Of a stretch of 64,000 nt of DNA, positions 36,774 to 58,103 are shown one piece after another. The DNA lies in contig NZ_CP133089.1 in assembly GCF_030908405.1 (NCBI RefSeq), positions 124,001 through 188,000 of the forward strand, given 5' to 3'. Within the stretch, counting starts at the first letter, position 1; each line of letters starts with the position of its first letter. The position numbers and the translations under genes were made by a program. Origin of the DNA: Aminobacterium sp. MB27-C1. Lineage in GTDB: Bacteria; Synergistota; Synergistia; Synergistales; Aminobacteriaceae. The notes below the pieces were generated by a model that searched no databases, was not told where the DNA came from, and saw only the letters and a program-made list of their open reading frames with translations.

Positions 36774-36816
36774 AAGGCAGGAGACCTCAAGAGTAAGACG
36801 CGAGGTTTCCTGCCTT
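36774..36816. terminator. Bidirectional terminator between the MCP and nrpR genes
   Basis: AAGGCAGGAGACCTC (36774-36788) pairs with GAGGTTTCCTGCCTT (36802-36816) with one G-U pair. A-rich sequence on the left and TTAATAATTT on the right let it serve both convergent genes; the nrpR stop codon touches it. Confidence 0.75.
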
Positions 36817-37807
36817 AATAATTTCGTATATCGGTCATTTTTTCTACATCGAATAGACTGCTGGCAATAGAGAGATTGGTGGCGATTCCTTTCTCGATGA
36901 GGGGGGCAAAAAGGTTGGCTCCTCCATAGATGATCATATAGCCTTTATTCCTGTCTTTTGAGCTTATTCTGTATGAAGGGGAAATAATGCCACCATGCGA
37001 AATAAGACCGGAGAATATTGACGGTGTAAGTTTTTTAAGAGCATTTTGCAACTCTTTATACAGAAATGAAGGAAAAATTTTAATGGCCGCAGTAGCGAGT
37101 CCATTCCCCGTTTCTACAAGTTTGCTCACAGAGGTATATTTGCCCCGAATAAGAATTTCACCAGGGCTTAAGGTTGTTCCGGTATGAGAAATGATCTCAG
37201 TAAAACCACATGCAGTGAAGTTCTCAAGGCGATAGAGCCCTGTTGCTGACGTTTCTACGTAAATTCCCATTTTTTGAAAAGCGATGTCATAGTTTCGAGA
37301 TGAAACGCATACAAGTGCTACATAATCTTTAGAGATATTGCAATTCCAAAGCTTTTCTGGCTCTTTAGCTATACCAATCAATGGAGAAACACATATATTA
37401 ACTTCAACAGCCTGTTTTAACTCCTTCAGGGCTTTTTCAAGCTTGTCTTTTTCGAGAAGCAGGCAGTTGACCACAATCCTTCCTTTGTTTTTTAATAGAT
37501 CGTAAGAGTAGTAAGAAGAGAGTTTTTCTGTTTCAAAAGAGGATGTGCCAATACGATCAAAGACGAAGAGCATTTTTGCTTCGTTAATACCTTTTTCTGT
37601 AAGATGGGCCCCCCTGTTTCCCTTCCTCGTAATAAGGTTTTCTGTTTCCATATTCGAGAGGTGATATCGTATCGTTCTTGAATCGAGGTGATAGCCACGT
37701 TCTTCAAGCTGTTTTCGTATATGTCCTGACGATTGTAATCCTTCAGAAAAATAAAGAATGCGAAGTATTTCTATTACTGTCGCTGCATATTTTTCGTCGG
37801 CAAACAT
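36815..37807 (-). CDS. nrpR: NrpR-like transcriptional regulator (winged helix plus DUF128)
   Basis: 330 residues: an N-terminal winged helix (VIEILRILYFSEGLQSSGHIRKQLEERG...SRTIRYHLSNMETENLI, residues about 11-65) followed by one NrpR regulatory domain with PGEILIRGKYTSVSKLVETGNG and ISHGGIISPSY. In methanogens NrpR represses nitrogen genes at GGAA-N6-TTCC and is released by 2-oxoglutarate. Here such a site lies in the promoter of the divergent carboxylate operon. The ligand may thus be 2-oxoglutarate or a related di-acid from the pathway. AAGGAG precedes the ATG. Confidence 0.85.
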   Translation of the reverse strand: MFADEKYAATVIEILRILYFSEGLQSSGHIRKQLEERGYHLDSRTIRYHLSNMETENLITRKGNRGAHLTEKGINEAKMLFVFDRIGTSSFETEKLSSYYSYDLLKNKGRIVVNCLLLEKDKLEKALKELKQAVEVNICVSPLIGIAKEPEKLWNCNISKDYVALVCVSSRNYDIAFQKMGIYVETSATGLYRLENFTACGFTEIISHTGTTLSPGEILIRGKYTSVSKLVETGNGLATAAIKIFPSFLYKELQNALKKLTPSIFSGLISHGGIISPSYRISSKDRNKGYMIIYGGANLFAPLIEKGIATNLSIASSLFDVEKMTDIRNY

Positions 37808-37837: not shown

Positions 37838-37857
37838 TTCGGAGATTGTTGTCCGAA
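37838..37857. promoter_or_regulatory. Inverted repeat in the nrpR leader, candidate auto-operator
   Basis: TTCGGA and TCCGAA flank 8 bases. The CGGA-N8-TCCG core has the same spacing as the perfect site at 38001-38016. It lies just after the predicted nrpR start point (near 37863), suggesting autorepression with a weaker site. Confidence 0.6.
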
Positions 37858-37962: not shown

Positions 37963-37991
37963 TTGACAAAATACATTGATTATATTAACCT
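37963..37991 (+). promoter_or_regulatory. Promoter of the carboxylate operon
   Basis: TTGACA at 37963-37968 is perfect; TAACCT at 37986-37991 lies 17 bases on. A TATATT at 37981 looks better but is too close. The start would fall near 37998, next to the NrpR-type site. Confidence 0.5.
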
Positions 37992-38000
37992 ATGACAAAA

Positions 38001-38016
38001 CGGAAGTCAACTTCCG
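38001..38016. promoter_or_regulatory. NrpR-type operator GGAA-N6-TTCC
   Basis: CGGAAGT and ACTTCCG are perfect inverted repeats around CA, which contains exactly GGAA-N6-TTCC (38002-38015), the sequence known for archaeal NrpR. It overlaps the predicted start point and ends 6 bases before the ribosome binding site of the first gene. Confidence 0.72.
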
Positions 38017-38036
38017 AAAAAAGAGGAGGGAATGTT

Positions 38037-39425
38037 GTGGAAAAATGTTCACTTCTCGTGTCTACCGGCAATTTGGGTGACAACATTATTGAAGAAGAAT
38101 CTTTCTACGAAGGGGTAAAGCACCATATTGATTGTTTTGCTGCCGATGCGGGAACCGCCGACGCAGGTCCTACTTTTTTAGGTGCAAACAAACCTCATAA
38201 CCCAATTGAATGGGAAAGACACGATCTCGAAGTTATGCTTGTCGAATCGAGAAAGAAAAAGGTTCCCATGATTGTAGGTTCATGTAGCACTACCGGAACA
38301 GATCGCACAGTAGATCTCTACGCAGATCTTATTCGTGATATTGCCAAAGAACATCATCTCGCACCCTTTAAAATGGCCCTCATCTATTCTCAAGTTGATA
38401 AAAATGAGCTCTTGAAACGAGCTGAAAATGGAGAAACAGAACCTCTCGAAGCAGATTTTCCTCTAACTAAAGAAGTAATAGATCAAACGACAAATGTTAC
38501 AGCCAGTATGGGTGTGGAACAGATTGTTTATGCACTGGAACAAGGTGCCGATGTAATTATGGCTGGCCGTGCTTGTGACGATGCTGTATTAGCAGCCTAC
38601 CCCGTATTTAGGGGATTTGATAGAGGAATCAGTCTTCATATGGGGAAGGCCGCCGAATGTGCCTCTCTTGTTTGTTGGCCTCAGATGGTTAAAGAGTCTA
38701 TTATTGCCACCGTTCATCCAGATCACTTTACTATTGAACCGATGCACCCGAATCAGCGAGCTACGCCCCATAGCTTGGCCGCTCATTCTATGTACGAGCG
38801 AACCAATCCCTTTGTTCAGGGGCTGCCTGGTGGAATTCTCGATATGCACGAAAGCGTGTATGAGTCTGTTACAGATCGTATTGCCAAGGTTTCAGGAAGC
38901 AAATTTGTTACCTCTCCCGATAGAAGTTACAAAGTAAAGCTAGAAGGGGCTGGCGAAGCCGGACACAGAGTCTATCACTTTGTAGGAATCCGCGATCCCC
39001 GAGCCATTGAACATATTGACACGATTATAGAAGACACGAGAAAAAAAGTGTCTCATATTATCGGCCCTTCCAGAGATAAAGATTATGAGCTCTTCTTCCA
39101 TGTTTATGGACGCAATGCCGTTATGAGAGAGTACGAACCTATTTTGAAAACACAATCTCACGAACTGGGAATTTTTATTGAAGTTATTTCGCATGATTTG
39201 GAATTAGCTACCACTGTTGCGAAATGTGCTAAATTCCGCTTTTTCTATATGAGCTATCCTGGTCAAATGAACTCTTCTGGCGGTTCTGTTGCCCTTCTCA
39301 CTGATGAACCTCTCTACCCACAGAATAAGTGTTATCGCTGGACTATCGACCATTTATTGAGTCTTAAAGATCCCCTTGATAGCGGCATTTTTAAATATCA
39401 TTTCGAGATGGTAGGGGAGTCGTAA
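38037..39425 (+). CDS. AtuA-like protein (DUF1446, acyclic terpene utilisation family)
   Basis: 462 residues with the DUF1446/AtuA domain: ADAGTADAGPTFLG near residue 35, VPMIVGSCSTTGTDRTVD, QGADVIMAGRACDDAVLAAYP and the late YPGQMNSSGGSVALLTDE. AtuA-type proteins act in breakdown of branched acids, but their reaction is not established. The start is the GTG at 38037 behind GAGGAGGG; an ATG at 37992 would put the operator inside the gene. Its stop overlaps the next start (TAATG). First gene of the NrpR-linked operon. Confidence 0.78.
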   Translation: MEKCSLLVSTGNLGDNIIEEESFYEGVKHHIDCFAADAGTADAGPTFLGANKPHNPIEWERHDLEVMLVESRKKKVPMIVGSCSTTGTDRTVDLYADLIRDIAKEHHLAPFKMALIYSQVDKNELLKRAENGETEPLEADFPLTKEVIDQTTNVTASMGVEQIVYALEQGADVIMAGRACDDAVLAAYPVFRGFDRGISLHMGKAAECASLVCWPQMVKESIIATVHPDHFTIEPMHPNQRATPHSLAAHSMYERTNPFVQGLPGGILDMHESVYESVTDRIAKVSGSKFVTSPDRSYKVKLEGAGEAGHRVYHFVGIRDPRAIEHIDTIIEDTRKKVSHIIGPSRDKDYELFFHVYGRNAVMREYEPILKTQSHELGIFIEVISHDLELATTVAKCAKFRFFYMSYPGQMNSSGGSVALLTDEPLYPQNKCYRWTIDHLLSLKDPLDSGIFKYHFEMVGES

Positions 39426-40825
39426 TGAAAGTTCCCCTCGATCTAAACAACACGTATCTTTCAAAATTGAGCCGGTTCTACGCAGATAGTAACGCATCGG
39501 CTATTCCTGAAGATGTGCTTCTGAAAGCCCGTCGTGTACTTATCGATTTTCTTGCCGAAGTTGCAGCGGGGTATAAAACGGGAGTTTTCCCCGCTATTTG
39601 CACTACATATCTTTTGGCTCTCGGTGGAAAGCCGGAAGCAACCATTCTTTGCTACGGCAAGAAAGTTCCGGCTCTTCATGGAGCATTGGCTCTTGGTGCC
39701 TTAGGCCATTCAATCGAATTAGATGATGGGCATAGATGGGGAACAAGCCATCCTGCAGTGGCTATTATCCCGGCAGCATTGACCGTTGCAGAAAGGGAAA
39801 AAGCCGATTTTACACGTCTTTTGAGAGCTATTGTCGTTGGGTATGATGTAATGCTTCGCGCTGCGCGAGCTATCAACCCATCTCACTTGAGAAGGGGCTT
39901 CCACTCGACGGGAACATGCGGAGCTCTCGGTGCCGCTGCTGCATGTGCATGCCTTCATAACCTTGATGCCGAATCCTTTGCTTACGCCGTATCTCTCGGG
40001 GGATTACAAAGCGCAGGTTTGCAAGAGATGCTTCACGATCATCCTGAAGTAAAACCTCTTCAGCCAGGAAAGGCAGCCCTTGCCGGCGTTTTAGCAGCAG
40101 ATCTGGTGAGAGGTGGGGCAAAGGGGCCTCGATCTCTTTTTGAAGGAGAGCATGGATGGCTCAAAGCCATGTGTCATAACGAGTTTTCCGAAGATGCACT
40201 CATGGGAGATCTGGGAACTCGTTGGGAAATCATGAAGACCTATACCAAGTTATATCCTACCTGTCGGCATTGTCACGCAGCTATCGACCTGGCGAAGGAG
40301 GCAAAAAAAACATTAGGTTTGAGCCTTAACGATATTCAGTCGATTCATGTGAAGACATATGCTTTAGGCATTGTCGAAGTCGGTCAGATCTTTGTTCCAG
40401 AGACCTTTGAAGAGGCTATGTTCAGCCTTCCCTTTTCCGTAACTTTGGCCCTTGAACGAGGACACGTAACCCTACAGGATTACGACAATGAATCTTTACA
40501 TAATGAGGTTCTTCGGCAGGCGTCACTCAAAATACGTGTTGAAGAAGATGAAGCTATGAATCGCCTTTATCCAGAGGAGCGAGGGGCCTGGATGAAGATA
40601 GATCTGCATGATGGGCGCTCTTTTGAAAAGTACATTCCCGTAGCGAAGGGAGAACCTGAAAATCCAGTATCTGACAGTGATCTTCTGGAAAAACTCAAGG
40701 GTATGGTGAATGTCTATTATCCAGAAGAGTTCTTAAGCGGCTTATGGCAGATTTGTGTGGAAAGGCCCATAGACTCTGTCTCCTATGGGGAAATTGTTGA
40801 TCATTTTGGGAGGTTCCACTCATGA
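39425..40825 (+). CDS. MmgE/PrpD family protein 1
   Basis: 466 residues of the 2-methylcitrate dehydratase/cis-aconitate decarboxylase superfamily. Conserved blocks: IELDDGHRWGTSHP (D100, D101, H109), RGFHSTGTCGALG (H160) and KLYPTCRHCHAAID. Members dehydrate or decarboxylate tricarboxylic acids, or isomerise itaconate-type acids, without metal. It overlaps the AtuA-like stop and the DUF4387 start, so expression is coupled. It keeps all family motif residues and is probably active. Confidence 0.85.
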   Translation: MKVPLDLNNTYLSKLSRFYADSNASAIPEDVLLKARRVLIDFLAEVAAGYKTGVFPAICTTYLLALGGKPEATILCYGKKVPALHGALALGALGHSIELDDGHRWGTSHPAVAIIPAALTVAEREKADFTRLLRAIVVGYDVMLRAARAINPSHLRRGFHSTGTCGALGAAAACACLHNLDAESFAYAVSLGGLQSAGLQEMLHDHPEVKPLQPGKAALAGVLAADLVRGGAKGPRSLFEGEHGWLKAMCHNEFSEDALMGDLGTRWEIMKTYTKLYPTCRHCHAAIDLAKEAKKTLGLSLNDIQSIHVKTYALGIVEVGQIFVPETFEEAMFSLPFSVTLALERGHVTLQDYDNESLHNEVLRQASLKIRVEEDEAMNRLYPEERGAWMKIDLHDGRSFEKYIPVAKGEPENPVSDSDLLEKLKGMVNVYYPEEFLSGLWQICVERPIDSVSYGEIVDHFGRFHS

Positions 40826-41148
40826 AAACAAAAAATATATGTGACCTGGCCAGAACGGTTCGAAGCAAAAATGCAGGGAGCTTCATGATTACTCTTGAGA
40901 TTATTTTTGACGATCGTTCTGTCTACGAGAAAGTGAAAAAAAGCGGTGTGGTAACTCAGGAGGCTATCGCCCGTGTCTACGATGTTTCTACAGATAAAGT
41001 GCTTGATTTTATGTTTTTTGATCCTGGAATGGGTATAAAGGCCAATCTCCGTCGTTCAATAGCCAGTGGCGGGCCATCTGAGACAGATGTATACGGGTGT
41101 CAGCAGTACGCGCCACTCTTTTCATTAGAGGTTCCATGGGATGAGTAA
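40822..41148 (+). CDS. DUF4387 protein
   Basis: 108 residues (KTKNICDLARTVRSKNAGSFMITLEIIFDD...VTQEAIARVYDV...FDPGMGIKANLRRSIASGGPSETDVYGCQQYAPL), matching DUF4387. This small family is typically encoded with AtuA/DUF1446 proteins, which suggests the two form a complex. Here they are split by the first PrpD gene. It overlaps its neighbours on both sides (4 and 8 bases). The reaction is unknown. Confidence 0.78.
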   Translation: MKTKNICDLARTVRSKNAGSFMITLEIIFDDRSVYEKVKKSGVVTQEAIARVYDVSTDKVLDFMFFDPGMGIKANLRRSIASGGPSETDVYGCQQYAPLFSLEVPWDE

Positions 41149-42520
41149 CAAGCCTTATGCAAGGAAATTAGCCGAATTTGCTGCCGGCGCAACTTTTTCA
41201 GATCTTCCTAAAGAGGTTGTTCATCAAGCACGGCGATGTCTTCTCGATACTGTTGGTGTCATTATTGCCGGTTCGGCTATGGCTGATTCATCGAAGGCGA
41301 TACAAAAATTTGTGAAGAAAATGGCTCCGCAAGGGAAAGCGTCTGTTATTGGAACATCTCAAAAGGTGGAAGGGGCTTACGCTGCTCTTGCCAATGGAGT
41401 GGCTGCCCATGCCTTAGAACTTGATGATGGTTCTAAATATGCAACATATCATCCTGGAGCGTCTATGATTCCCACTGCTTTGGCCTTGGCAGAAGAGCAG
41501 GAAGCTACATTAGGCGATGTGCTTCTTGCCCTTGCTTTAGGATATGAAGTTTCATTGCGTATTGGTACATCGGTGAATCCCTCTCACTATTTAAAGGGTT
41601 TTCATCCTACCGGGACAGTGGGAACTTTCGGCACGACTATTGTAAGTGCCAGTTTATCGGGATTAGATGCTGATGGCATTACGTCGGCTCTCGGTATTGC
41701 TGGAAGCCTGGCATCGGGTATTAATCAATACGAGATTGACGGCTCGTATGTGAAACATCTTCATCCGGGGAATGCCGCGAGAAACGGCATATTTGCAACC
41801 CGTCTTGCAGAAAATGGTTTCACGGGGCCAGGGGAAATTATTGAAGGGCGATTGGGTTTTGCTCACTGTTTTTCCAATACATTTGTTCCACAAATTCTTT
41901 ATGAAGACCTTGGTGGAATGTGGGAGTTCTTAAAAATATACTTTAAGCCCTACTGCTCGTGTCGATATGTTCACTACGCTGTTGAAGCTGTTGAAAATAT
42001 CTTGAAAGAACATCCTTTTGCGGCCGACGATATCGATTTTATACGGGTTCGAACCCATCAGAATGCAAAACAGGGGTCTGATATTCCCGATTACCAGACA
42101 GTTCTTCATGCTCGGCTCAGTTTGCAGTATGGAATGGGATCAATGATCGTTCGAGGAAAAGCCGGTCTTCAGGAATACACGGAAGATAGTATTAAAGACG
42201 AGCGAGTCAGAGCTTTGGCATCGAAGATCGCAATTGAAGAAGATGCTGAAATACAGAAACATTATCCTGAAAAACGAACAACTATTGTGGAAATAACAGA
42301 TAAGCGCGGAGAGACCTTTTCTTCAACTGTAGATTATGCCAAAGGAGACCCACTAAACCCCATGTCAGATGATGACATACGAGAAAAATTTAAAGATGTT
42401 ACCCACACGCTTCTCGAAGATAAACAGCAAGAAGAAATAATGAATTGGATTATGAATGAAGAACCGACGAAGAAGACTCTTCGTAATCTTATGGCTATGC
42501 TCTCAGTGAATGAGGGATAA
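41141..42520 (+). CDS. MmgE/PrpD family protein 2
   Basis: 459 residues with LELDDGSKYATYHPG (D95, D96, H104), KGFHPTGTVGTFG (H155), VKHLHPGNAARNG and YFKPYCSCRYVHYAVEA. All motif positions fit an active MmgE/PrpD enzyme. It differs clearly in sequence from proteins 1 and 3 of the same operon, so it is not a recent copy; it probably handles a different intermediate or forms a mixed dimer. Confidence 0.85.
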   Translation: MSNKPYARKLAEFAAGATFSDLPKEVVHQARRCLLDTVGVIIAGSAMADSSKAIQKFVKKMAPQGKASVIGTSQKVEGAYAALANGVAAHALELDDGSKYATYHPGASMIPTALALAEEQEATLGDVLLALALGYEVSLRIGTSVNPSHYLKGFHPTGTVGTFGTTIVSASLSGLDADGITSALGIAGSLASGINQYEIDGSYVKHLHPGNAARNGIFATRLAENGFTGPGEIIEGRLGFAHCFSNTFVPQILYEDLGGMWEFLKIYFKPYCSCRYVHYAVEAVENILKEHPFAADDIDFIRVRTHQNAKQGSDIPDYQTVLHARLSLQYGMGSMIVRGKAGLQEYTEDSIKDERVRALASKIAIEEDAEIQKHYPEKRTTIVEITDKRGETFSSTVDYAKGDPLNPMSDDDIREKFKDVTHTLLEDKQQEEIMNWIMNEEPTKKTLRNLMAMLSVNEG

Positions 42521-42534
42521 GGAGGAGAATCGAG

Positions 42535-43920
42535 ATGGCAGATAGAATTAATGAAAGTATTTCTCAGTTCATTTTTGATCTCAAATACGAAGATATTCCC
42601 CCAGAAGTAACGTTCCACCTAAAAAATATTCTGCTTGATTCTTATGGATGTGGTCTGTTTGGTTCAGCAACACCGTGGATGAAAATCTACAAAGATGTAC
42701 TTTTGAAAATGACAGACAGACAAGAGGCCACAATTTGGGGAACGAATCAAAAGACATCCACTACGGCGGCTATGATGCTTAACGGTTCTGCCATCAATTC
42801 TTTTGAGCTTGATGATACTCATACAGATGGCATTATTCACGTTTCCACGGGAGTTTTGGGATGTATTACTGCTTTTGCAGAAAGTCTTGGAACTGTATCT
42901 GGAAAAGATTTTCTGACAGCCGCGGTATTAGCTTTTGAAATTGCTTGTCGTGTCGCGGCTCCTATCGGTACAGAGCTGGCACATCAGGGATTTAATAACA
43001 CCGGTACGTGTTGCCCATTCGGATCGGCTGCCGGAGTAGCTAAAATGTTGGGGCTGACTAAAGAACAGGTAATTCACGCTATGGGCATTACGGGAAACTG
43101 GTCGAGCGGTCTTCAGGCTGTTCAATTTGCGTCTATGGCAAAACGTATTGTGCCGTCGAAGTCTTCTGAAGGGGCCATTGTTGGTTGTCTTTTGGCCAAG
43201 GAAGGATTTACCGGCATAGAAGATGTTTTCGAGAATAAATTTGGTGGTTTCTATAATTGTTTCACCGATGATGTCTATAACATAGAACGAACGGCTGGTG
43301 AGCTTGGAGATCGTTGGGAGTTGCTTGGCATAGGTTTGAAGTTCTATTCAACGTGTCGCAGCAAGCATTCTACCATCGACACCCTTCGCAGATTCAGACA
43401 GGAACATCCGGAAGTTAAACCTGAAGATATTAAGAAAATAAGAGTGGGAACAACTTCGATTACCCATAAATATTCAGTTGATGCTGACGCCATTACCAGC
43501 GTTGTAGCAGCTCAATTGAGCCATCCCTATGTATGTGCTGTAACCATGCTTGAAGGAAATGCCTTTGTAGACCAGTTTACCGAAGAGAAAATTCGTAATA
43601 AAGAAATTCTTGATTTTGCCAAAAAAGTTGAAGTATACACCGATGAAGAGATAGAAAAGCTTCCACGAGCTCTTCGTTACACAGTAAATGTGGAAGTGGA
43701 ACTGAATAGCGGTCAAAAATATGCCATGAAAACAGAGTACCCAAAGGGACATCCGAAAAACCCGTTCACGAAAGATGAATTACTTTGGAAATTCAACTCT
43801 CTTGCGGGAAAAGTATTTACCGACGAAGAACGGCGCAAGAATATTGTTGAAGCCGTGCTTAACCTTGAAGAACTAGATAATATTCAGACACTCACAAGCC
43901 TTTTGAGAAAAGAGGCATAA
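42535..43920 (+). CDS. MmgE/PrpD family protein 3 with altered motif residues
   Basis: 461 residues. The family blocks are FELDDTHTDGIIHVS (D93, D94, H102) and QGFNNTGTCCPFG, where the usual H of GFHxTGT is N154, and the HP pair is HV. The rest (AKRIVPSKSSEGAIVG, KFYSTCRSKHSTIDTL) is intact. It may have another specificity or be a non-catalytic partner of proteins 1 or 2. GGAGGAG precedes the ATG; the next gene starts 2 bases after the stop. Confidence 0.82.
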   Translation: MADRINESISQFIFDLKYEDIPPEVTFHLKNILLDSYGCGLFGSATPWMKIYKDVLLKMTDRQEATIWGTNQKTSTTAAMMLNGSAINSFELDDTHTDGIIHVSTGVLGCITAFAESLGTVSGKDFLTAAVLAFEIACRVAAPIGTELAHQGFNNTGTCCPFGSAAGVAKMLGLTKEQVIHAMGITGNWSSGLQAVQFASMAKRIVPSKSSEGAIVGCLLAKEGFTGIEDVFENKFGGFYNCFTDDVYNIERTAGELGDRWELLGIGLKFYSTCRSKHSTIDTLRRFRQEHPEVKPEDIKKIRVGTTSITHKYSVDADAITSVVAAQLSHPYVCAVTMLEGNAFVDQFTEEKIRNKEILDFAKKVEVYTDEEIEKLPRALRYTVNVEVELNSGQKYAMKTEYPKGHPKNPFTKDELLWKFNSLAGKVFTDEERRKNIVEAVLNLEELDNIQTLTSLLRKEA

Positions 43921-43922
43921 GA

Positions 43923-45197
43923 ATGGCTCGCGGGAAGACCATTGTCGAGAAAATAATATCATCTCATTGCGGGCAGGATGTATATGCTGGGGATTTTGCC
44001 GTTGTCAATGTGGATTTGGCTATGGCCCATGACAGCACTGCTCCTTTGGCTATTCAAGCTTTTCGACAGTATGAAGAGCCTCGTGTTTGGGATGCTTCCC
44101 GTTTGGTTTTTGTACTCGATCATGCTGTTCCCAGCCCTAATGAGCAGGTGAGTCGCCTTCATTCGATGATTCGCGACTTTGCTCATGAGCAGAAAGCGCA
44201 TCTTTTCGAAGCAGGAGAAGGAATTTGTCATCAGTTGCTTGCAGAACAGGGTCTTGTGAGACCTTCAGATATTGTGGTGGGGTGTGATTCTCACACCTGT
44301 ACCTATGGAGCTTTGAATGCTCTTTCTTTTGGTATCGGTTCTACTGATATGAGTGGCGTGTTACTTACAGGTCAGCTTTGGCTGAAAGTTCCTGAAACAC
44401 TGAAGCTCATTTATGAGGGAAAGATGCAAAAGGGAGTAAGTGCCAAGGATGTAATGCTCTTTACTATTGGCAAGTTGAGATCTGACGGGGCTGATTATCT
44501 GGCCCTTTCTTTTACAGGTGAAGCCATAGAAAACATGGAGATCTGCGATCGTTTAACCATGTGCAATATGGCTATCGAATGCGGGGCGAAGGCTGGCATG
44601 ATGGAGTGTGATGATAAGACAAAAGCATATCTTTCTGGTCGGTCAAAAATGGAAATTTTACCTGTTTTTGACGACAAAGATGCCCTCTACCGTGATACTA
44701 TAACAATTAATATTAGTGCTTTAGAACCACAGATAGCCCTTCCCCATGCTGTGGATAATGTTTGCCCCGTAAAGAAAGTTGAAGGAACAGAGATCCAGCA
44801 GATTTTTATTGGTACATGCACCAATGGCAGGCTTGAAGATTTGCGAGCTGCGGCTTCGATTTTGCGCGATAAACATATTAGTTCGAGCTGTCGGCTCATT
44901 GTTGGTCCTGCATCTCGTGAGGTTTTGCGAGAGGCCATACGTGAAGGAACTATAGAAGTTTTACTTCAGGCGGGGGCTACTATTATTCCACCTGGCTGCG
45001 GACCTTGTCCAGGAACACATTTAGGGGTTCCTGGGGATGGCGAAAAGGTTCTTTCTACAGCCAATCGGAATTTTAAGGGACGTATGGGTAACAATAAAGC
45101 CTCTATCTATCTTGCTTCACCAATGACATGCGCAGCATCTGCTTTGAGGGGATGTATAAGTGATCCCCGGGAATTTCTCGAAATGGGGGATGCGTAA
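43923..45197 (+). CDS. Aconitase-superfamily hydratase, large subunit (LeuC/HacA/DmdA type)
   Basis: 424 residues with the [4Fe-4S] cysteines C299 in GTCTNGRLEDL and C359/C362 in PPGCGPCPGTHLG, plus VGCDSHTCTYGALNALSFGIGSTDM near residue 120. This is the two-subunit branch that includes isopropylmalate, homoaconitate, citramalate and dimethylmaleate hydratases. The setting, with a lyase and PrpD enzymes and no leu genes, argues for a catabolic hydratase rather than leucine synthesis. The stop overlaps the small-subunit start (TAATG). Confidence 0.87.
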   Translation: MARGKTIVEKIISSHCGQDVYAGDFAVVNVDLAMAHDSTAPLAIQAFRQYEEPRVWDASRLVFVLDHAVPSPNEQVSRLHSMIRDFAHEQKAHLFEAGEGICHQLLAEQGLVRPSDIVVGCDSHTCTYGALNALSFGIGSTDMSGVLLTGQLWLKVPETLKLIYEGKMQKGVSAKDVMLFTIGKLRSDGADYLALSFTGEAIENMEICDRLTMCNMAIECGAKAGMMECDDKTKAYLSGRSKMEILPVFDDKDALYRDTITINISALEPQIALPHAVDNVCPVKKVEGTEIQQIFIGTCTNGRLEDLRAAASILRDKHISSSCRLIVGPASREVLREAIREGTIEVLLQAGATIIPPGCGPCPGTHLGVPGDGEKVLSTANRNFKGRMGNNKASIYLASPMTCAASALRGCISDPREFLEMGDA

Positions 45198-45733
45198 TGA
45201 TTGAGGGACGTGCACACCTTTTTGGCGATAACATAAATACAGATTACATTATTGCCGGTAAATATACGAAAACCCTTGATTATTCCGTTTGGGTTAGTCA
45301 TCTCTTTGAAGACATTTCTCCGGGGTTTAGTCAGAAGGTGAAGCCTGGCGATTGTGTTGTTGCCGGTCGCAATTTTGGATGCGGTTCCTCGCGAGAACAG
45401 GCTGCTGTAGCTTTGAAATATGCCCAAGTCGGGGCAGTTTTGGCAAAATCTTTTGCCAGAATATTTTTTAGAAATGCTATCAATCTCGGAATTCCAGCAC
45501 TTATTTGTAATACTGATGAAATCCACGATGGAGATCAGTTGGAAATTGATTTAACCAACCAGAAAATTTATAACCTCACAACACATCAAATACTCACAAT
45601 TGAGCCACTTCCTGATGTAATGATCCAGATTCTTTCCGAAGGTGGGTTAACTCCCTACTTGAAAAAATTCAAGACATTTAAAAAAGCCCCAGGTAAAGGA
45701 GGGACGCGCATAACGAAAATAGTCGTAATGTAG
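45197..45733 (+). CDS. Aconitase-superfamily hydratase, small subunit (LeuD/HacB/DmdB type)
   Basis: 178 residues with GDNINTDYIIAGKYT and VVAGRNFGCGSSREQAAVALKYA, typical of the swivel domain. The substrate-recognition loop reads KYTKTLDY where the isopropylmalate enzyme has a YLRM-type loop, so the substrate is probably not isopropylmalate. It pairs with the preceding large subunit. Dimethylmalate or a methyl-tricarboxylate would fit the downstream lyase. Confidence 0.85.
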   Translation: MIEGRAHLFGDNINTDYIIAGKYTKTLDYSVWVSHLFEDISPGFSQKVKPGDCVVAGRNFGCGSSREQAAVALKYAQVGAVLAKSFARIFFRNAINLGIPALICNTDEIHDGDQLEIDLTNQKIYNLTTHQILTIEPLPDVMIQILSEGGLTPYLKKFKTFKKAPGKGGTRITKIVVM

Positions 45734-45777: not shown

Positions 45778-46800
45778 ATGCAGAAACATAGAAAGTGGTT
45801 ATTTGTTACATGTCTGCTGGTGATCTTTTCTTTAGGAATTGCAGGAGCAGGTTATTCACAGGAGACCAGTTTGAATATGGGCAGCACCTCATCATCTTCT
45901 GGCGTATATGCATGGTGTGTGGCCGCTGCCAATGTTATCAATAAGGCAGATGCGGGGTTAAATGTTACTGTTGTTGAAAGCGGAGCTGGAATTGATAACC
46001 TTAAGAAAGTTCGTGACGGTGTTTTTGATTTTGCTCTTTGTATCGATTTGCCTTCTACACTTCAGCTTTATGAAGGCACAGGCACTTTTAAGGGAGAGAA
46101 ACCCTACACAGATGTGCGCTGGCTCTTTTTAAGAAATGTTTTTGCCGATCGGCTTTACGTGCGTAAAGATGCCAATATCAAAACTTTCGCAGATCTTGCC
46201 GGTAAAAGATTTTGCCCAGGCATTCCTGGTTCAGCTTCAGCTTCGTATGTAATGCAATATAACGATATTTTGGGAACTGGCATCAAATTGATGCCCATGG
46301 CCTACGGAGATGCTGTAAATGCCCTTAAAGAAGGGCGTATTGTTGGGCTTCAGAAATCAAGCGGGCTTAACTCGATGGATGCCTCTCTTATAGAAGTGAA
46401 TATATCTACCCCTCTCGCTGTTATTGGCTACTCCGAAGAAGATGTGAAAAAGATTCGTGAAGACATTCCAAGCATGAGTTTCATGACCACTAAAAAAGGA
46501 ACAATTTCTCAACTTCCAGATATCGGACCGATCTGGGAAGAGTGCCCCATAGCTGGAGCAGTTGCCAGTACTCGTATGTCTGAAGAAGTGGCATATAACC
46601 TCATTAAGGCATATATGGAAGGAATCGAAGAGGTCGCAGCCGCTTACGCTCCCATAAAAGGATGGGATCCTGTTGCAGATTACTTTAAATTCGCATCAGA
46701 AGATGCTTTCATTCCAGCCCATCCAGGGTTGATTCGTTATGCGAAAGAAAAAGGGATAGAGGTTCCTGAATACTTTATTCCACCTGAGTATAAAAAATAG
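45778..46800 (+). CDS. TAXI family TRAP transporter solute-binding protein
   Basis: 340 residues with an N-terminal signal peptide (basic start MQKHRK, hydrophobic core LFVTCLLVIFSLGIAGAGYS) and the TAXI-type start LNMGSTSSSSGVYAWCVAAANVINK, followed by DLAGKRFCPGIPGSASASYV. It binds a ligand in the periplasm and hands it to the fused permease encoded next. TAXI systems carry di- and tricarboxylates and glutamate. The context points to the acid degraded by this operon. Confidence 0.85.
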   Translation: MQKHRKWLFVTCLLVIFSLGIAGAGYSQETSLNMGSTSSSSGVYAWCVAAANVINKADAGLNVTVVESGAGIDNLKKVRDGVFDFALCIDLPSTLQLYEGTGTFKGEKPYTDVRWLFLRNVFADRLYVRKDANIKTFADLAGKRFCPGIPGSASASYVMQYNDILGTGIKLMPMAYGDAVNALKEGRIVGLQKSSGLNSMDASLIEVNISTPLAVIGYSEEDVKKIREDIPSMSFMTTKKGTISQLPDIGPIWEECPIAGAVASTRMSEEVAYNLIKAYMEGIEEVAAAYAPIKGWDPVADYFKFASEDAFIPAHPGLIRYAKEKGIEVPEYFIPPEYKK

Positions 46801-46879: not shown

Positions 46880-48811
46880 GTGAACGTACAGAATTTCTTT
46901 AAGAAGCATATAGGCAGCATTTTATTTTGGAGCGGCATTGTCTTTTCTTTAACACAACTTATCGTTCCTATCTATTTTCAACATTTACTTGATATTCAAG
47001 TTCGGGCTCTTCACGTAGCGTTAGGTGTTTCTATTGCATTGCTGAACTTTCCCTTTCGAAAAAAGGGTGACGATAGCGAGCGTTCCTACGTTTGGGATAT
47101 CTTTCTTATCGTTGTTATTGTTGTTGCGTGCGTCAATATTGTTTTGAAAGCGCTTGATGTATATATGAACCCCGGAGGGGCTACTTCTCTTGATCTGCTT
47201 TTGGGAACAGCTCTTATGGTTATAGTTCTTGAAGCGGCTCGTCGCACTGTTGGTGCTGCTATACCCATACTTGTTGCCCTTCTGTTTAGCTATATCTATG
47301 TGGCTCCTTATTTAGGCGGTTTATGGAAGATTCGAGGCTTATCTTTTGAGTTTGTCATGAATTCTATATATTATTCTCCCCTTGGTTTGTTTGGTAGTGT
47401 AACAGGCATGTCTGCTACCTTTATTGCAATGTTTATTATCTTCGGTTCTCTTCTTTCTGCTACCGGAGGAGGAAAGACATTCATTGATTTAGCGCTGGCT
47501 CTTACTGGCCGTTTCGTTGGTGGCCCGGCAAAAGCAGCCGTTATTTCAAGTGCTCTCTTTGGCAGTATTTCAGGAAGTTCGGTTGCTAATGTTATGGTAA
47601 CGGGCAGCTATACCATTCCCCTAATGAAACGACTCGGATATCGTCCAGAATTTGCCGGAGCCGTTGAAGCTATTGCCTCTACAGGAGGCGGAATTACACC
47701 TCCTATTATGAGTATTACGGCTTTTATGATGGCCGAGTTCTTAAATATTTCGTATTTGAATATTATCGGCTACGCCCTTTTACCCTGTTTGCTTTTTTAT
47801 ACAGGTGTTTTGAGTGGCGTACATTTCCAGACGAAACGGAGAGGACTGGCCTCGGTTCCAGAGGATGAAATTCCACGTTGGAAAGAAATTCTGACTTTTG
47901 AGCGAATGGCAGGATTGCTTATTCCGACGGCACTCCTTCTATACCTCATCGCCACAGGACAACCTCTTTTGAAAGCGGGATTTTATGCCTGTATTTCATC
48001 TATTGTTGTTTTGATTATCAGCGATGCTTTAAAGAAAAAAATCAAAGAAACGCCCCAAAAAATACTGTCAGCTCTCAGTGAGGCAGGTTCTGACGTTGCC
48101 CGTATCGCTCCCATTCTTATTTCAGTGAGTATGCTTGTGAATCTTATTGGAATAACTGGAATCGCTCCTAAAATAAGTGGCCTGATTCTTGATTATGGAG
48201 GGTCTAATCTTTTTATAGCGTTGCTTGTCGCTACTATCGTGCCCTTTCTTCTAGGAACCTCCCTCCCTGTTGTGCCCACTTACGTTCTCTCTGTTTCCAT
48301 TCTCGTTCCTCCTCTCTTGAAGATAGGCATTGATCAGGTTGCAGCGCACCTTTTCTTTATCTATTGGGCCATTCTTGGAGGCGTAACTCCGCCTACATGT
48401 ACAGCAGCAGTTGCCGCATCAAGTATTTCTAAGGGGAATTGGGTAAAAACAGGTTTTAATGCCGTAAAACTCGGGGCTGTTGCCTTTATATTGCCATACT
48501 TCTTTGCTTTAAACCCCTCTCTTGTCGGAAGAGGAACGTCTCTCTCTATTTTGAGTCACGGTTTAACTGGGTTTATCGGGGCAATTTCCATAGCTTACGG
48601 GTTCTTTGGTTTTGGAAATAGCATTATGGCGAAGATCAGCCGAGTGCTCTTTTTTGTCAGTGGAATATTACTTCTTTTCCCTGACGTGAAGCTTTCTGTG
48701 ATTGGAATAGTCGGTGTATGCGTTGCTTTCTTCTGGAATAGACTGATTCTTAAAAGAGAACGCCTTAATTTTAATGGAGGGGTAAGAGTTGAAAAAAACA
48801 ACGAAGCTTAA
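46880..48811 (+). CDS. TRAP transporter fused permease (DctQ-DctM)
   Basis: 643 residues with about 18 membrane helices: a short DctQ-like N-terminal part and a long DctM part containing GSISGSSVANVMVTGSYTIPLMKRLGY and GGVTPPTCTAAVAASSI. It is the membrane partner of the TAXI protein, driving uptake with an ion gradient. The start is a GTG at 46880 behind GGGGGGAGAGAG. Its end overlaps the lyase gene by 23 bases, so transport and cleavage are coupled. Confidence 0.88.
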   Translation: MNVQNFFKKHIGSILFWSGIVFSLTQLIVPIYFQHLLDIQVRALHVALGVSIALLNFPFRKKGDDSERSYVWDIFLIVVIVVACVNIVLKALDVYMNPGGATSLDLLLGTALMVIVLEAARRTVGAAIPILVALLFSYIYVAPYLGGLWKIRGLSFEFVMNSIYYSPLGLFGSVTGMSATFIAMFIIFGSLLSATGGGKTFIDLALALTGRFVGGPAKAAVISSALFGSISGSSVANVMVTGSYTIPLMKRLGYRPEFAGAVEAIASTGGGITPPIMSITAFMMAEFLNISYLNIIGYALLPCLLFYTGVLSGVHFQTKRRGLASVPEDEIPRWKEILTFERMAGLLIPTALLLYLIATGQPLLKAGFYACISSIVVLIISDALKKKIKETPQKILSALSEAGSDVARIAPILISVSMLVNLIGITGIAPKISGLILDYGGSNLFIALLVATIVPFLLGTSLPVVPTYVLSVSILVPPLLKIGIDQVAAHLFFIYWAILGGVTPPTCTAAVAASSISKGNWVKTGFNAVKLGAVAFILPYFFALNPSLVGRGTSLSILSHGLTGFIGAISIAYGFFGFGNSIMAKISRVLFFVSGILLLFPDVKLSVIGIVGVCVAFFWNRLILKRERLNFNGGVRVEKNNEA

Positions 48812-49661
48812 ACATATGATTCTTGAGCGTCGTGCCCTTGTTTGCCCTGGAGCACACGATGCCCTTTCTGCAAAACTTATTGAAAGAGCGGGGTTTGAAG
48901 CTCTTCAGGTGAGTGGCTTTGGATTATCGGCAACATGGTTAGGGTTGCCAGATATGGCTTTTCTTTCCTTTGGAGAGATGTTGCAATTTACGAGGAATAT
49001 AGTTAACGCTGTTGAGATTCCAGTTATGGCCGATGCAGACACAGGATTTGGAAGCAGTATTAATGCCATGCATGTAACAAAGGAACTTATCCGGATCGGT
49101 GCTGCCGGCATGAACATTGAAGATCAACTTTTCCCTAAACGATGTGGCCATTTAGAGGGAAAACAAATTATTCCCATGGAAGAGATGGTTATAAAGCTGA
49201 AAGCTTGCGTGAAAGCTCGGAATGAACTTGATTCTGACTTCGTGATCAATGCTCGTACAGATGCTATTGCAGTTACCGGCATAGATGATGCCATCAACAG
49301 AGCTAATGCTTATGCGGATGCAGGGGCAGATTTGATATTTGTCGAAGCGCCTCAATCGAAAGAAGATATTTTGCGAATAATAAAAGAGGTAAAGGCTCCT
49401 ATTAGTGTCAATTTGTTTGATGCAGTGAGTGGAGGTAAAACGCCGCTTATCCCAATCGAAACGTTGAAAGAGATGGGTGTGGGGCGTGTAAGTATTCCAG
49501 TAGGGCCGTTGTTTGGCGCCATGAAAGGAATGCAAGCATATCTTGAAGCGATAGCAGGAGGAAAGTTGGCTGAAGGTAGAGATGATTTAGTAGTTCCTTT
49601 CGGGGAGTTTAAAGATGTAGTTGGTTTTAACTTTTTCAGGCAGTTAGAGAAAGATATCTAG
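48789..49661 (+). CDS. Isocitrate lyase/PEP mutase family C-C lyase (methylisocitrate or dimethylmalate lyase type)
   Basis: 290 residues with the metal site DADTGFG (residues about 78-84), the catalytic KRCGH (Cys119) and NARTDA (about 153-158). The KRCGH loop separates true lyases from PEP mutase and oxaloacetate decarboxylase relatives. Known lyases of this size split methylisocitrate to pyruvate and succinate, or dimethylmalate to pyruvate and propionate. The start is a TTG at 48789 behind GGAGGGG, overlapping the permease gene. It is the terminal enzyme of the operon. Confidence 0.85.
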   Translation: MKKTTKLKHMILERRALVCPGAHDALSAKLIERAGFEALQVSGFGLSATWLGLPDMAFLSFGEMLQFTRNIVNAVEIPVMADADTGFGSSINAMHVTKELIRIGAAGMNIEDQLFPKRCGHLEGKQIIPMEEMVIKLKACVKARNELDSDFVINARTDAIAVTGIDDAINRANAYADAGADLIFVEAPQSKEDILRIIKEVKAPISVNLFDAVSGGKTPLIPIETLKEMGVGRVSIPVGPLFGAMKGMQAYLEAIAGGKLAEGRDDLVVPFGEFKDVVGFNFFRQLEKDI

Positions 49662-49853: not shown

Positions 49854-50609
49854 ATGGCAGAAAATAGTTTGCAATTAGTTGATAGAGTAGTTTCAATAAT
49901 GGGTTTTCTTTCTGAAAAACAAGAGGCTATTGGAGTTTCTGAAATAGCCCGTTCGGTGGAGTTATCGAAAGCGACAGTTCATAGAATTTTGAATACTCTA
50001 TTAGGTTATAGTCTCGTTCTCAAGAACGAGCGTGGCCAATATCAAATAGGTCCTGGAGTTCTTCTTTGGGCTAATTCTTATAGAAAACGTTCTGGCTTAT
50101 CAGCAGTAAGTGCTCCCTTCTTAAAAGAATTATTAGCTTTTACAGAAGAGACGATTCATCTTTTTATATTCGAAAATGGAGAAGGCTATTATCTCGAAAG
50201 AGTTGAAAGTCCTCAGCCTCTCATCACCCGTTCAGCAGTAGGGTCCAAATTACCACTTCACAGTTCATCCGCTGGGAAAGCTATCTTAGCTGCTCTTCCT
50301 TTAGATGTTTTTAACGAGTTTATGGAAAAAATAGAATTTACTCCCCGTACTCCCAACAGCATAACTGACAAAGAGGTCTTGCGCGATCAGATTGCTAAAT
50401 GGAGAAAGCTTGGCTATAGCGAAGAAATAGAAGAAAACGAGCCGGGAATTCGTTGTGTAGGGTCTGCTATCTGTGATTCTAAGGGCTATCCCATAGGTGC
50501 TATAAGCGTATCTGCTCCAGCATTCCGTTTTGATGACGAAAAATCAGCGTTAGTTGGAAGAAAACTTCGTGAAGTAACTGCGGCAATATCGGCGAAGTTT
50601 GGGGCGTAA
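49854..50609 (+). CDS. IclR family transcriptional regulator
   Basis: 251 residues: an N-terminal winged helix (ISEIARSVELSKATVHRILNTLLGYSLVLKN with slight variation, residues about 25-55) and a C-terminal effector domain with LPLHSSSAGKAILAALP and EENEPGIRCVGSAICDSKGYPIGAISVSAP. IclR proteins respond to small carboxylic or aromatic acids. It is 83 bases upstream of the glycyl-radical operon, with a 19-bp palindrome in the gap, so it most likely controls that operon. AGGAGG precedes the ATG. Confidence 0.9.
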   Translation: MAENSLQLVDRVVSIMGFLSEKQEAIGVSEIARSVELSKATVHRILNTLLGYSLVLKNERGQYQIGPGVLLWANSYRKRSGLSAVSAPFLKELLAFTEETIHLFIFENGEGYYLERVESPQPLITRSAVGSKLPLHSSSAGKAILAALPLDVFNEFMEKIEFTPRTPNSITDKEVLRDQIAKWRKLGYSEEIEENEPGIRCVGSAICDSKGYPIGAISVSAPAFRFDDEKSALVGRKLREVTAAISAKFGA

Positions 50610-50622
50610 ATAAAGGTAGTTT

Positions 50623-50641
50623 TTAATGGTCAGACCATTAA
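50623..50641. promoter_or_regulatory. 19-bp perfect palindrome, candidate IclR operator
   Basis: TTAATGGTC, A, GACCATTAA is perfectly symmetrical. A partial copy (ATTGGTC followed by TATTAAT) lies at 50647-50660. It is placed in front of the glycyl-radical operon where no good -35 box is seen, consistent with an activator site, though repression is possible. Confidence 0.6.
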
Positions 50642-50692
50642 CTTTTATTGGTCTATTAATCGTTACATTTTAAAACAGGAGGTGCGTTTTTT

Positions 50693-51934
50693 ATGAAATT
50701 TCTGGAAACAAAAACACCGTGGATGACGGAAGATTGGTACACGAGTCCGTGGAACTTTTCCGAAGAGGCCAGAAAGGGGGTCGAGTTTTCTAAGAATCTT
50801 CAGTTTCATGACGTTTCCCTTCGGGATGGAGAGCAGCAGTCTGGTTTGATCTTCAATAAAGATCAGAAGATTGCGTTGGCAGAGAAGTTGGCTGAGCTTG
50901 GTATTCATCGTATTGAAGCTGGTATGCCTGCTGTTTCAGATCAGGATGAAGCTGCTATTCGTGAGATCGTAAAGAGAAATCTTGGCCCAACTATTTTTGC
51001 TTTTGCCCGTTGCATGAAAGTTGATGTTCAGAAGGCTTTGGATTGTGGCGTAAAGCATATCGTTATGGAGGTTCCCACAAGCGATCACTTAGTGAAATAT
51101 GCTTACCGTTGGGATATGCAGAAGACAATTGATCTCTCTATTGATGCGACGTTATTCGCTCATGAAAACGGGATGTATGTTTCGTTCTTCACAATTGATG
51201 GAACCAGAACTGATATTAACGATTACCTCAACCTGATTCAGAAGATTGCTACAGAGGGTCATATGGATGAACTCACCGTAGTCGATACTATGGGTGGTTT
51301 GAATCCTCACGCAGTTCCTTATTTGATTCATAAGGTTAAGGAGCGTATTCCTGATAAACCAATCGGAATTCACTTCCACGATGATTATGGTTTGGGTGCT
51401 GCTAATACAATTGCTGGTTTGGCCGCTGGAGCGGATATAGCTCACACAACTATTTCCGGAATAGGCGAACGGGCTGGAAATGCACCCTACGAAGATGTTG
51501 CTTTGGCTCTTCTCACTATGTATGGCGTAGATACAGGCTTGAATTACGATAAGATGTACCCCCTCTCTAAGTTCCTTCGTGATATGACAGGCCTTACAGT
51601 TCGCCAGAACCGTGGAATCGTCGGAGATCATGTGGCTGATATCGAGTCTGGAATCGTTGCAGGCTGGTATAAGAACGCAGCTGAAGAGGCTCCTTTGGAG
51701 TTGTCTCCCTATCTCTATGGTTTAACAGGACATCCTGATGCGAAAGTAACTATCGGCAAGATGAGCGGGATTCCGACAGTAGATATTTACCTTGAACAGT
51801 TGGGACTCTCTACTGATGATAAAGAGTTGAAGTTAGAGATAGTTAACGCTGTAAAAGCGAAGGCCTTCGAAAAGAGTGATCTTCTCGAGCTTCGAGAGTT
51901 TGAAGAAATAGCACGTAAGATTCTTAAAAAGTAG
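50693..51934 (+). CDS. DRE-TIM metallolyase, homocitrate/isopropylmalate synthase-like
   Basis: 413 residues. The TIM-barrel motif HDVSLRDGEQQSG gives R44-D45, the metal histidines are H227 and H229 (HFHDDYGLG), and GIGERAGN follows. These are hallmarks of Claisen-condensing acyl transferases. The C-terminal LeuA regulatory domain is absent. Because it heads an operon with an aminotransferase and a glycyl radical enzyme, it may condense acetyl-CoA with a 2-oxo acid or run the reverse cleavage. HMG-CoA lyase is less likely from motif layout. Confidence 0.8.
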   Translation: MKFLETKTPWMTEDWYTSPWNFSEEARKGVEFSKNLQFHDVSLRDGEQQSGLIFNKDQKIALAEKLAELGIHRIEAGMPAVSDQDEAAIREIVKRNLGPTIFAFARCMKVDVQKALDCGVKHIVMEVPTSDHLVKYAYRWDMQKTIDLSIDATLFAHENGMYVSFFTIDGTRTDINDYLNLIQKIATEGHMDELTVVDTMGGLNPHAVPYLIHKVKERIPDKPIGIHFHDDYGLGAANTIAGLAAGADIAHTTISGIGERAGNAPYEDVALALLTMYGVDTGLNYDKMYPLSKFLRDMTGLTVRQNRGIVGDHVADIESGIVAGWYKNAAEEAPLELSPYLYGLTGHPDAKVTIGKMSGIPTVDIYLEQLGLSTDDKELKLEIVNAVKAKAFEKSDLLELREFEEIARKILKK

Positions 51935-51968
51935 CACCATATTCAGTATTACTAAGGACGTGAAAGAA

Positions 51969-53138
51969 ATGAAGACACCGAAGGTTCTAGAAGGGTTTCC
52001 TGCTTCTGGCATCAGGAAGATGGCACAACTCTCAACAAAGTATAAAGATGTGATCTTCCTAGCCTTTGGCGAACCCGATTTTGATACGCCAGCACATGTT
52101 AAGGAAGCAGCTAAAAAAGCTCTTGATGAAAATTTGACCCATTATTCAAGTAATATTGGCGCCATTGAATTTAGAGAGGCTGTTGTTGAGAAGTACAAAA
52201 GAGAGATGGGACTGGAAATTAAGCCGGAGAATGTCATTGGAACTATAGGCGGTATGGAATCACTTTTCCTTGCTTTCCTTTCAAACTTCAATCCTGGCGA
52301 TGAAGTTCTTGTTACAGACCCATACTACTCAAACTACTTAACGCAGCTTCATGTAATAGGCCTGAAACCTGTGTTGGTCCCCCTTTACGAAAAGAACCAG
52401 TTCAGGCTCCAGGCAGAGGACGTCGAGAAGGCCGTCACACCTAAAACTCGCGCCCTTGTATTGAACTCCCCATGCAACCCAACAGGAGGAGTTATTGATT
52501 ATGATACCATGAGCAAAATCGTAAAGGTAGTAAGAGAGCATGACCTTATGGTTATTTCTGACGAGGTCTACGAGAGCATTCTTTACGATGGAGCCATGCA
52601 CGTGTCTCCTGCGCAATTCCCCGAGATACGCAACAATGTCATCATCGTTAACAGCCTTTCCAAAACATACGCTATGACAGGCTGGCGCATTGGGTATGCC
52701 GTTGCTTCTGAAGAGGTTATCAATAATATGTGCTGCCTTCAGCAGGCTGTGACAGACTGTATTCCTACCTTTATACAGCACGCAGCAGCGGAAGCTTTGA
52801 CTGGCAGTCAGGAAGCCACTCTGGATATGTTGAAACAATATACTTGCAGAAGAGATATTGTTGTTGACGGACTCAATGAGATACCTGGAATTTCCTGTTC
52901 TAAAACGGCTGGCGCTTTCTATGCTTTCCCGAATATAAGCGCATTAGGTAAAACATCAGAAGAATTTGCTATCGATCTTCTCGATAAAGAGCAGGTTGTT
53001 ACTGTTCCCGGATCCTACTTCGGAAAAATGGGAGAGGGCTTTATCCGGATATCATTTGCAACATCTGAGGATAACCTCAAAGAAGCTGTTCGCCGTATTG
53101 GACGGTACGTTGAAAAGTATTGCACAGTTAATGCTTAA
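51969..53138 (+). CDS. Class I/II aminotransferase (aspartate-type)
   Basis: 389 residues of fold type I: GEPDFDTP near residue 34, NSPCNPTGG near 166 and the pyridoxal lysine K232 in NSLSKTYAMTGWRIGY. It interconverts an amino acid and its 2-oxo acid. The ATG at 51969 is preferred over a GTG at 51960 because AAGGA lies 10 bases upstream. It stands between the DRE-TIM and glycyl radical genes, so it probably feeds or drains a 2-oxo acid in that pathway. Confidence 0.87.
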   Translation: MKTPKVLEGFPASGIRKMAQLSTKYKDVIFLAFGEPDFDTPAHVKEAAKKALDENLTHYSSNIGAIEFREAVVEKYKREMGLEIKPENVIGTIGGMESLFLAFLSNFNPGDEVLVTDPYYSNYLTQLHVIGLKPVLVPLYEKNQFRLQAEDVEKAVTPKTRALVLNSPCNPTGGVIDYDTMSKIVKVVREHDLMVISDEVYESILYDGAMHVSPAQFPEIRNNVIIVNSLSKTYAMTGWRIGYAVASEEVINNMCCLQQAVTDCIPTFIQHAAAEALTGSQEATLDMLKQYTCRRDIVVDGLNEIPGISCSKTAGAFYAFPNISALGKTSEEFAIDLLDKEQVVTVPGSYFGKMGEGFIRISFATSEDNLKEAVRRIGRYVEKYCTVNA

Positions 53139-53159
53139 CTCCTAAGGGGAGGCATATTG

Positions 53160-56371: not shown

Positions 56372-56462
56372 AAGGAAAATACTGCAAGACAAAATGAAAA
56401 TACAGACGGTTTTTCAGCAGAGTAGAGTGCTGATAATCGATTTCGGCCAGGAGGAATGACAA

Positions 56463-57476: not shown

Positions 57477-57506
57477 ACCTTATTGCGGCTAAGCATTAGA
57501 AATATA

Positions 57507-57545
57507 CCTTCCGCAGGGAATAGAAAGAGGGCTCTCTGCGGAAGG
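57507..57545 (+). terminator. Attenuator-like hairpin between dctP and dctQ
   Basis: CCTTCCGCAG (57507-57516) and CTGCGGAAGG (57536-57545) form a perfect 10-bp stem followed by CTTTT. It would give partial termination so that the binding protein is made in excess over the permease. Confidence 0.6.
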
Positions 57546-57571
57546 CTTTTAAATGAGAGGAGATTTTCCCT

Positions 57572-58075: not shown

Positions 58076-58103
58076 GCAAGAAGGTTTGATTGGAGGATTT
58101 ACG

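Follow-up and report, generated by a model that had tools for sequence, protein, structure and literature searches.

What does a regulator of the NrpR type control in a bacterium, through which operator and in response to which ligand? In Methanococcus maripaludis, NrpR is the global nitrogen repressor of nif, glnA and glnK-amtB and comprises an HTH plus two NRD domains. Bacterial homologues have already been noted in print, the part of PMC2723118 available to us mentioning 'certain Bacteria', and no description of a bacterial NrpR operator or target was found in the open-licence literature searched. We have examined this question in a 64-kb stretch of DNA, hereafter the window, from Aminobacterium sp. 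MB27-C1, a member of the phylum Synergistota whose genome is a single contig of 2,427,830 bases and whose source, according to the accessible part of PMC11008193, was steel-mill wastewater-plant sludge. An initial annotation of the window had proposed an archaeal-type NrpR operator at positions 38001-38016, between an NrpR-type gene and a carboxylate operon.

Results

The regulator and the carboxylate operon

The nrpR gene (36815-37807, minus strand) encodes a 330 aa protein composed of an HTH_12 winged helix (PF08461, E 1e-15) and a single NRD1_2 domain (PF01995, E 2e-51), both above the gathering cut-offs, and is the one gene carrying PF01995 in the Aminobacterium genome. The top PDB match of the AlphaFold model (mean pLDDT 82) is 3NEK, the NrpR MJ0159 of Methanocaldococcus jannaschii (E 6e-14; TM 0.83-0.86 on target), the regulatory-domain folds being alike at a TM of 0.86 on target with an identity of 18-19% in the structural alignment; the sequence comparison with 3NEK spans profile positions 97-219 of 333. 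Judged by domain matches and predicted fold, the window gene is an NrpR-type regulator.

The divergent operon, on the plus strand, opens with a gene for an AtuA-family protein (Pfam PF07287; 38037-39425), followed by genes assigned by family match to MmgE/PrpD-family protein 1 (39425-40825), a DUF4387 protein (40822-41148), MmgE/PrpD-family protein 2 (41141-42520) and MmgE/PrpD-family protein 3 (42535-43920), the solved relatives of which are cis-aconitate decarboxylases and IDS epimerase. The large subunit of an aconitase/isopropylmalate isomerase family enzyme (43923-45197) and a LeuD/DmdB family small subunit (45197-45733) come next, then a TAXI family TRAP solute-binding protein (45778-46800), a long, probably fused TRAP transporter DctM-type membrane protein (46880-48811) and a PrpB-like lyase of the PEP mutase/isocitrate lyase superfamily (48789-49661), the gene for which is flanked in Acetomicrobium by the TRAP gene and nrpR. 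NCBIfam matches of the PrpD-like, aconitase-like and lyase proteins are all below equivalog cut-offs, and the enzymes are therefore assigned to family level, without substrate. MmgE/PrpD, LeuCD/DmdAB and PrpB/ICL enzymes take part in the methylcitrate and dimethylmalate pathways; the enzymes of the operon belong to the same families, AtuA and DUF4387 being additions here, and no paper on DUF4387 was found in the open-licence literature searched. The encoded proteins may take up a di- or tricarboxylate, dehydrate and rehydrate it, and cleave it. At the level of family matches, the genes predicted to be controlled are indeed a carboxylate uptake and breakdown set, not nitrogen genes, as the initial annotation had it. 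Further 3', window positions 49854-59387 hold genes for an IclR regulator, an HMGL-like lyase/synthase, an aminotransferase, a glycyl-radical enzyme with its activase and a DctP-Q-M TRAP transporter, a set which looks like another, separate catabolic cluster.

Operator 1 and the operon promoter

The promoter of the carboxylate operon (37963-37991, plus strand) is of the sigma-70 type, with a -35 box TTGACA (37963-37968), a 17 nt spacer and a -10 box TAACCT (37986-37991). Operator 1, CGGAAGTCAACTTCCG, occupies 38001-38016 just 3' of the -10 box and is assigned to neither strand; its arms, CGGAAGT and ACTTCCG, are 7 bp each, both perfect, and flank a central CA, and the site scores 14/14 against the order consensus. 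The sequence and coordinates of the perfect palindrome given by the initial annotation are thus correct, as is its overlap with the predicted start point, since the site begins 9 nt past the -10 box, at about the start point. The distance of 194 bases to the NrpR-type gene is likewise right, since counting upstream from the nrpR start codon reaches the first base of the site at number 194, and the assignment to the NrpR operator type agrees with the archaeal NrpR operator consensus, GGAAN6TTCC, printed in the available portion of PMC2723118. What had been overlooked is a second site at the nrpR promoter, operator 2, and a longer consensus, CGGAARTNNAYTTCCG. The conserved ribosome binding site GAGGAGGG (38023-38030, plus strand) precedes a GTG at 38037 which, from this site and from alignment, is the AtuA start codon, and not the ATG at 37992; operator 1 is therefore untranslated leader.

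Frequency of the motif

The bare motif GGAA-N6-TTCC occurs at 6 sites in the window versus 1.5 expected, and at 106 sites genome-wide versus 75 for the reversed control. It is common in the genome and thus, taken alone, proves little. The extended form CGGAARTNNAYTTCCG has a single exact match in the genome, operator 1, and two matches elsewhere with one mismatch, one deep within a transporter coding frame and the other where two genes abut. A one-mismatch site, CGGAAATGGATTTACG (G000:C1:418556-418571; L125:4557) overlaps a likely frame start directly behind the previous gene, the frame resembling, from its translation, formiminotransferase-cyclodeaminase. A wider regulon was sought genome-wide with the mistyped pattern CGGARATNNANTTCCG at two mismatches, giving 50 forward matches versus 53 for the reversed control and thus nothing beyond the local sites; we claim no regulon wider than these. 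The palindrome GGAATATATATTCC is present twice, at window positions 543-556, within an M20 peptidase frame, and at G000:C1:12138-12151.

The extended form was derived from the first relatives seen, about seven of the loci, so that the scores which these loci obtain are in part circular. This circularity is answered by a motif-free test, in which the 23 intergenic regions were dereplicated to 20 and compared with 100 dinucleotide shuffles. GGAA-N6-TTCC, present in 14 of the 20 regions, was the most shared 4+4 palindrome at gaps of 0-12, and the runner-up, CGGA-N8-TCCG (12/20), is the same site one base wider; spacings N2-N5 and N7-N10 were each found in 0 or 1 of the 20. In the shuffles, no palindrome, whatever its kind, was shared by more than 6 regions, and the mean for GGAA-N6-TTCC was 0.26. 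Across the AtuA loci compared, sites of at least 11/14 have a background density of 0.18 per kb (64 in 350,850 positions).

Conservation and co-inheritance in the Synergistota

Among 185 Synergistota genomes, an NRD gene over the cut-off was detected in 24, with weak fragments in four more, and an AtuA orthologue (at least 74% identity) in 23, with only paralogues of 33-40% identity in two more. Both genes are present in 22 genomes, nrpR only in two and AtuA only in one, a co-occurrence with a Fisher p of 3e-25 when genomes are counted and of 2e-10 when genera are (11/2/0/49), the counts having been taken by hand and the p values being uncorrected for relatedness. Within the mixed genera g8, g24 and g29, nrpR and AtuA occur together or are missing together in each genome. 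In the AtuA-only genome, G072, AtuA is located on a 3-kb contig; the nrpR-only genomes are G014, where TAXI-TRAP genes adjoin nrpR without AtuA, and G039, where nrpR is diverged (39%) and a 40% AtuA paralogue lies nearby.

A promoter-proximal site of at least 11/14 lies within 300 bp of the AtuA start in 21 of 23 loci. In G038, a 14/14 site is found farther upstream, directly after its promoter, and in G018 the operator place is masked by N, its 13/14 site being the one on the nrpR side. Absence of the motif before orthologous operons, which the initial annotation named as a refuting finding, is not what is seen: the motif is present in 22 of the 23 loci, the last being the one masked by N. 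The order of -35, -10 and site is kept in the same 22/23; in every readable locus 16-18 nt separate a TTGACA-type -35 box from a -10 box, and the site begins 9-16 nt past the latter. A variant, CGGCAAT..ATTACCG, is present in G009 and G071, and further exact sites in G039/G056 and G007 lie within mechanically listed open frames. AtuA paralogues of 32-40% identity gave no site reaching 11/14 within 300 bp at any of the seven promoters examined, an eighth match, G074:C55, being left out of this count.

Gene order in Acetomicrobium separates the regulator from its putative target promoters: nrpR closes the aconitase-TRAP operon, following the lyase gene, and AtuA and the gene for the large aconitase subunit, AcnL, are transcribed divergently. 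The AcnL/AtuA gap contains an AtuA-side site in 6/6 genomes and an AcnL-side site in the 5/5 examined (the G051 stretch is incomplete), and near nrpR itself only an 11/14 word is found, in 3/6 genomes. With nrpR relocated, the sites have remained with the promoters of the targets and thus follow these rather than the regulator gene. Thus, whereas the bare motif is ambiguous, conservation across relatives is far beyond chance and settles the site as real; 38001-38016 is confirmed as an operator predicted from sequence, and the sites, their conserved placement and their co-inheritance with nrpR stand as features of the compared DNA.

Several loci outside the main pattern were also observed. In G039 (L131:5367-7636), two strong sites, 13/14 and 14/14, lie 183 bp apart and approximately 4 kb from the diverged nrpR, preceding or entering a frame that from its translation is peptidase C26-like, followed by the 40% AtuA paralogue and a DUF4387 gene; NrpR and an AtuA operon may have been paired independently here. 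In G014, a TTGACA-type promoter on the far side of the TAXI-TRAP genes precedes a 13/14 site (L132:5111), and a second, weaker copy is nearby. Two g15 genomes contain weak PF01995 fragments below the cut-off that are interrupted by internal stops, L084 (G102) with 1 TAG and 1 TAA and L085 (G107) with 1 TAG and 2 TAA, which may be nrpR relics in a genus whose other listed members are without nrpR.

Operator 2 at the nrpR promoter

Operator 2, CGGAGATTGTTGTCCG (37840-37855, no strand assigned), is situated 33 nt 5' of the nrpR start codon. Its score of 11/14 is unremarkable, seven places in the 64 kb scoring 11. It is, however, one of the few conserved islands in an alignment of three congeners, in which the intergenic region has decayed save for the promoter, both sites and the ribosome binding site. 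Sites scoring at least 11/14 were found on the nrpR side in 15 of 17 divergent loci; the contig ends before nrpR in G048 and G072, and the nrpR-side site is weaker in G007 (10/14) and G062 (9/14). Autoregulation through operator 2 is the simplest reading and is probable. With respect to DNA looping, the inter-site spacings of 150-170 bp (226 in G048) have no common helical phase.

NrpR outside the Synergistota

A scan of genome contigs returned 13 loci, all from Synergistota, with Synergistaceae, Acetomicrobium and Thermovirga among the named relatives, except one from a Thermococci MAG (L070, QMUE01000179.1). The NrpR on this contig is 48% identical to the window protein and groups with Synergistota proteins in a tree, the base of which is unresolved, and transfer between Synergistota and Thermococci is possible. 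Its gene adjoins frames that, judged from translations, are racemase-like and archaeal ribosomal protein L10e-like, and no site of at least 11/14 is present on the 3.9-kb contig. NrpR-domain regulators on haloarchaeal plasmids (Natrinema, Haladaptatus), with 23-25% identity to the window protein, are likewise found beside catabolic and transport genes. For the Natrinema regulator, CGGAAACTACTTTCCG lies 25 nt before the aminotransferase-nrpR operon; no site above 11/14 was found in the Haladaptatus locus L134, the search leaving out L135.

Discussion

The single-domain NrpR is very probably a dedicated local repressor of the carboxylate operon and of itself that is released by a carboxylate. 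An NrpR dimer would bind CGGAARTNNAYTTCCG just 3' of the -10 box of the AtuA-PrpD-DUF4387-PrpD-PrpD-aconitase-TRAP-lyase operon, where it would block initiation by sigma-70 RNA polymerase, and the weaker copy of the site at its own promoter would provide autoregulation. Release would follow from binding of a small carboxylate, either the pathway substrate, an intermediate or 2-oxoglutarate, to the NRD domain. We infer binding by NrpR, repression rather than activation, and induction; the NRD domain could plausibly sense a different carboxylate instead of 2-oxoglutarate, as the initial annotation held. Weighing against the model are the variation among the sites, the lack of a clear site at the Thermococci and Haladaptatus L134 loci, and the two genomes with nrpR but without an AtuA orthologue, G014 and G039. 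No match to an ammonium transporter was found in the genome, and no nitrogen operator is present near the sole glutamine synthetase-like gene (G000:579503) among the 100 of 106 GGAA-N6-TTCC sites listed. With one NrpR and no ammonium transporter, the genome therefore seems to employ the protein for local repression of catabolic genes rather than for global control of nitrogen.

Origin of the palindrome by chance in an A+T-rich leader, a reading to which the 106 bare copies in the genome lend themselves, is exceedingly improbable given that place and sequence are conserved in 22 of 23 loci and that the motif-free test found 14/20 regions against a shuffle maximum of 6. That the site works at the RNA level, as a terminator or attenuator hairpin, instead of serving as an operator for a protein is also highly improbable. 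A terminator-like stem can be drawn on the minus strand (38016-38001; 1 found versus 0.2 in shuffles), but no gene was seen whose transcripts would run into a minus-strand terminator at this place, and the second copy is located at another promoter. Moreover, across 19 distinct sites GG and CC are invariant, whereas pairs 1, 4, 5, 6 and 7 show non-pairing combinations (CT, CA, AA, TT, AC, AG) or G-T only, both-sided swaps occurring only at pair 1 (one TA) and pair 6 (two GC); arm positions that vary without keeping pairs, around a constant GG/CC, render a hairpin unlikely.

The E. coli IclR box, TGGAAATNATTTCCA, has GGAA..TTCC half-sites at GGAA-N5-TTCC spacing. These similar half-sites, together with an IclR-family gene at 49854-50609, 12 kb downstream on the same strand, raise the possibility that the palindrome belongs to that regulator. 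We consider this very unlikely, as the spacing is 6 and not 5 (GGAA-N5-TTCC in 1/20 regions, N6 in 14/20), the linked regulator is nrpR, the best IclR relatives in other genomes are unlinked, with an identity of at most approximately 50%, and operon and site are kept in G009 and G071, which have no IclR relative at E 1e-20. A different alternative accepts NrpR binding but has the protein still answering to 2-oxoglutarate as in methanogens, the operon being a nitrogen-linked carbon pathway. The domain family and fold are the same, the operon could supply carbon skeletons for 2-oxoglutarate/glutamate, and the haloarchaeal plasmid relatives adjoin aminotransferase and agmatinase genes; on the other hand, the one glutamine synthetase-like gene has no nearby listed site, an ammonium transporter is missing, operator 1 is the only exact extended site in the genome, and nrpR is co-inherited with the carboxylate operon. 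This alternative is doubtful, while retaining an appreciable share of the probability.

Returning to the local carboxylate-released repressor, the proposed system resembles that of M. maripaludis in the operator GGAA-N6-TTCC, as reported in the accessible part of PMC2723118, and in the HTH and NRD architecture. It differs in the bacterial host, the sigma-70 promoter and one NRD domain instead of two. The consensus is also longer, with C/G at its outer ends, nitrogen genes are replaced by a local carboxylate operon, and the gene order is divergent. We give about even chances to the proposition that the archaeal operator code has been kept on sigma-70 promoters while the regulon has become one carboxylate operon and the regulator itself, and the effector has shifted from 2-oxoglutarate to one of the pathway's di- or tricarboxylates. 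For one bacterial lineage we have a prediction, conserved in 22 of 23 loci, that covers the operator with its promoter, the operon under control and a site for autoregulation, and the ligand question is therefore directly testable. If the proposition is true, one operator sequence would serve both archaeal and bacterial transcription machinery, and a repressor-operator pair common to both domains would have been turned from nitrogen to carbon.
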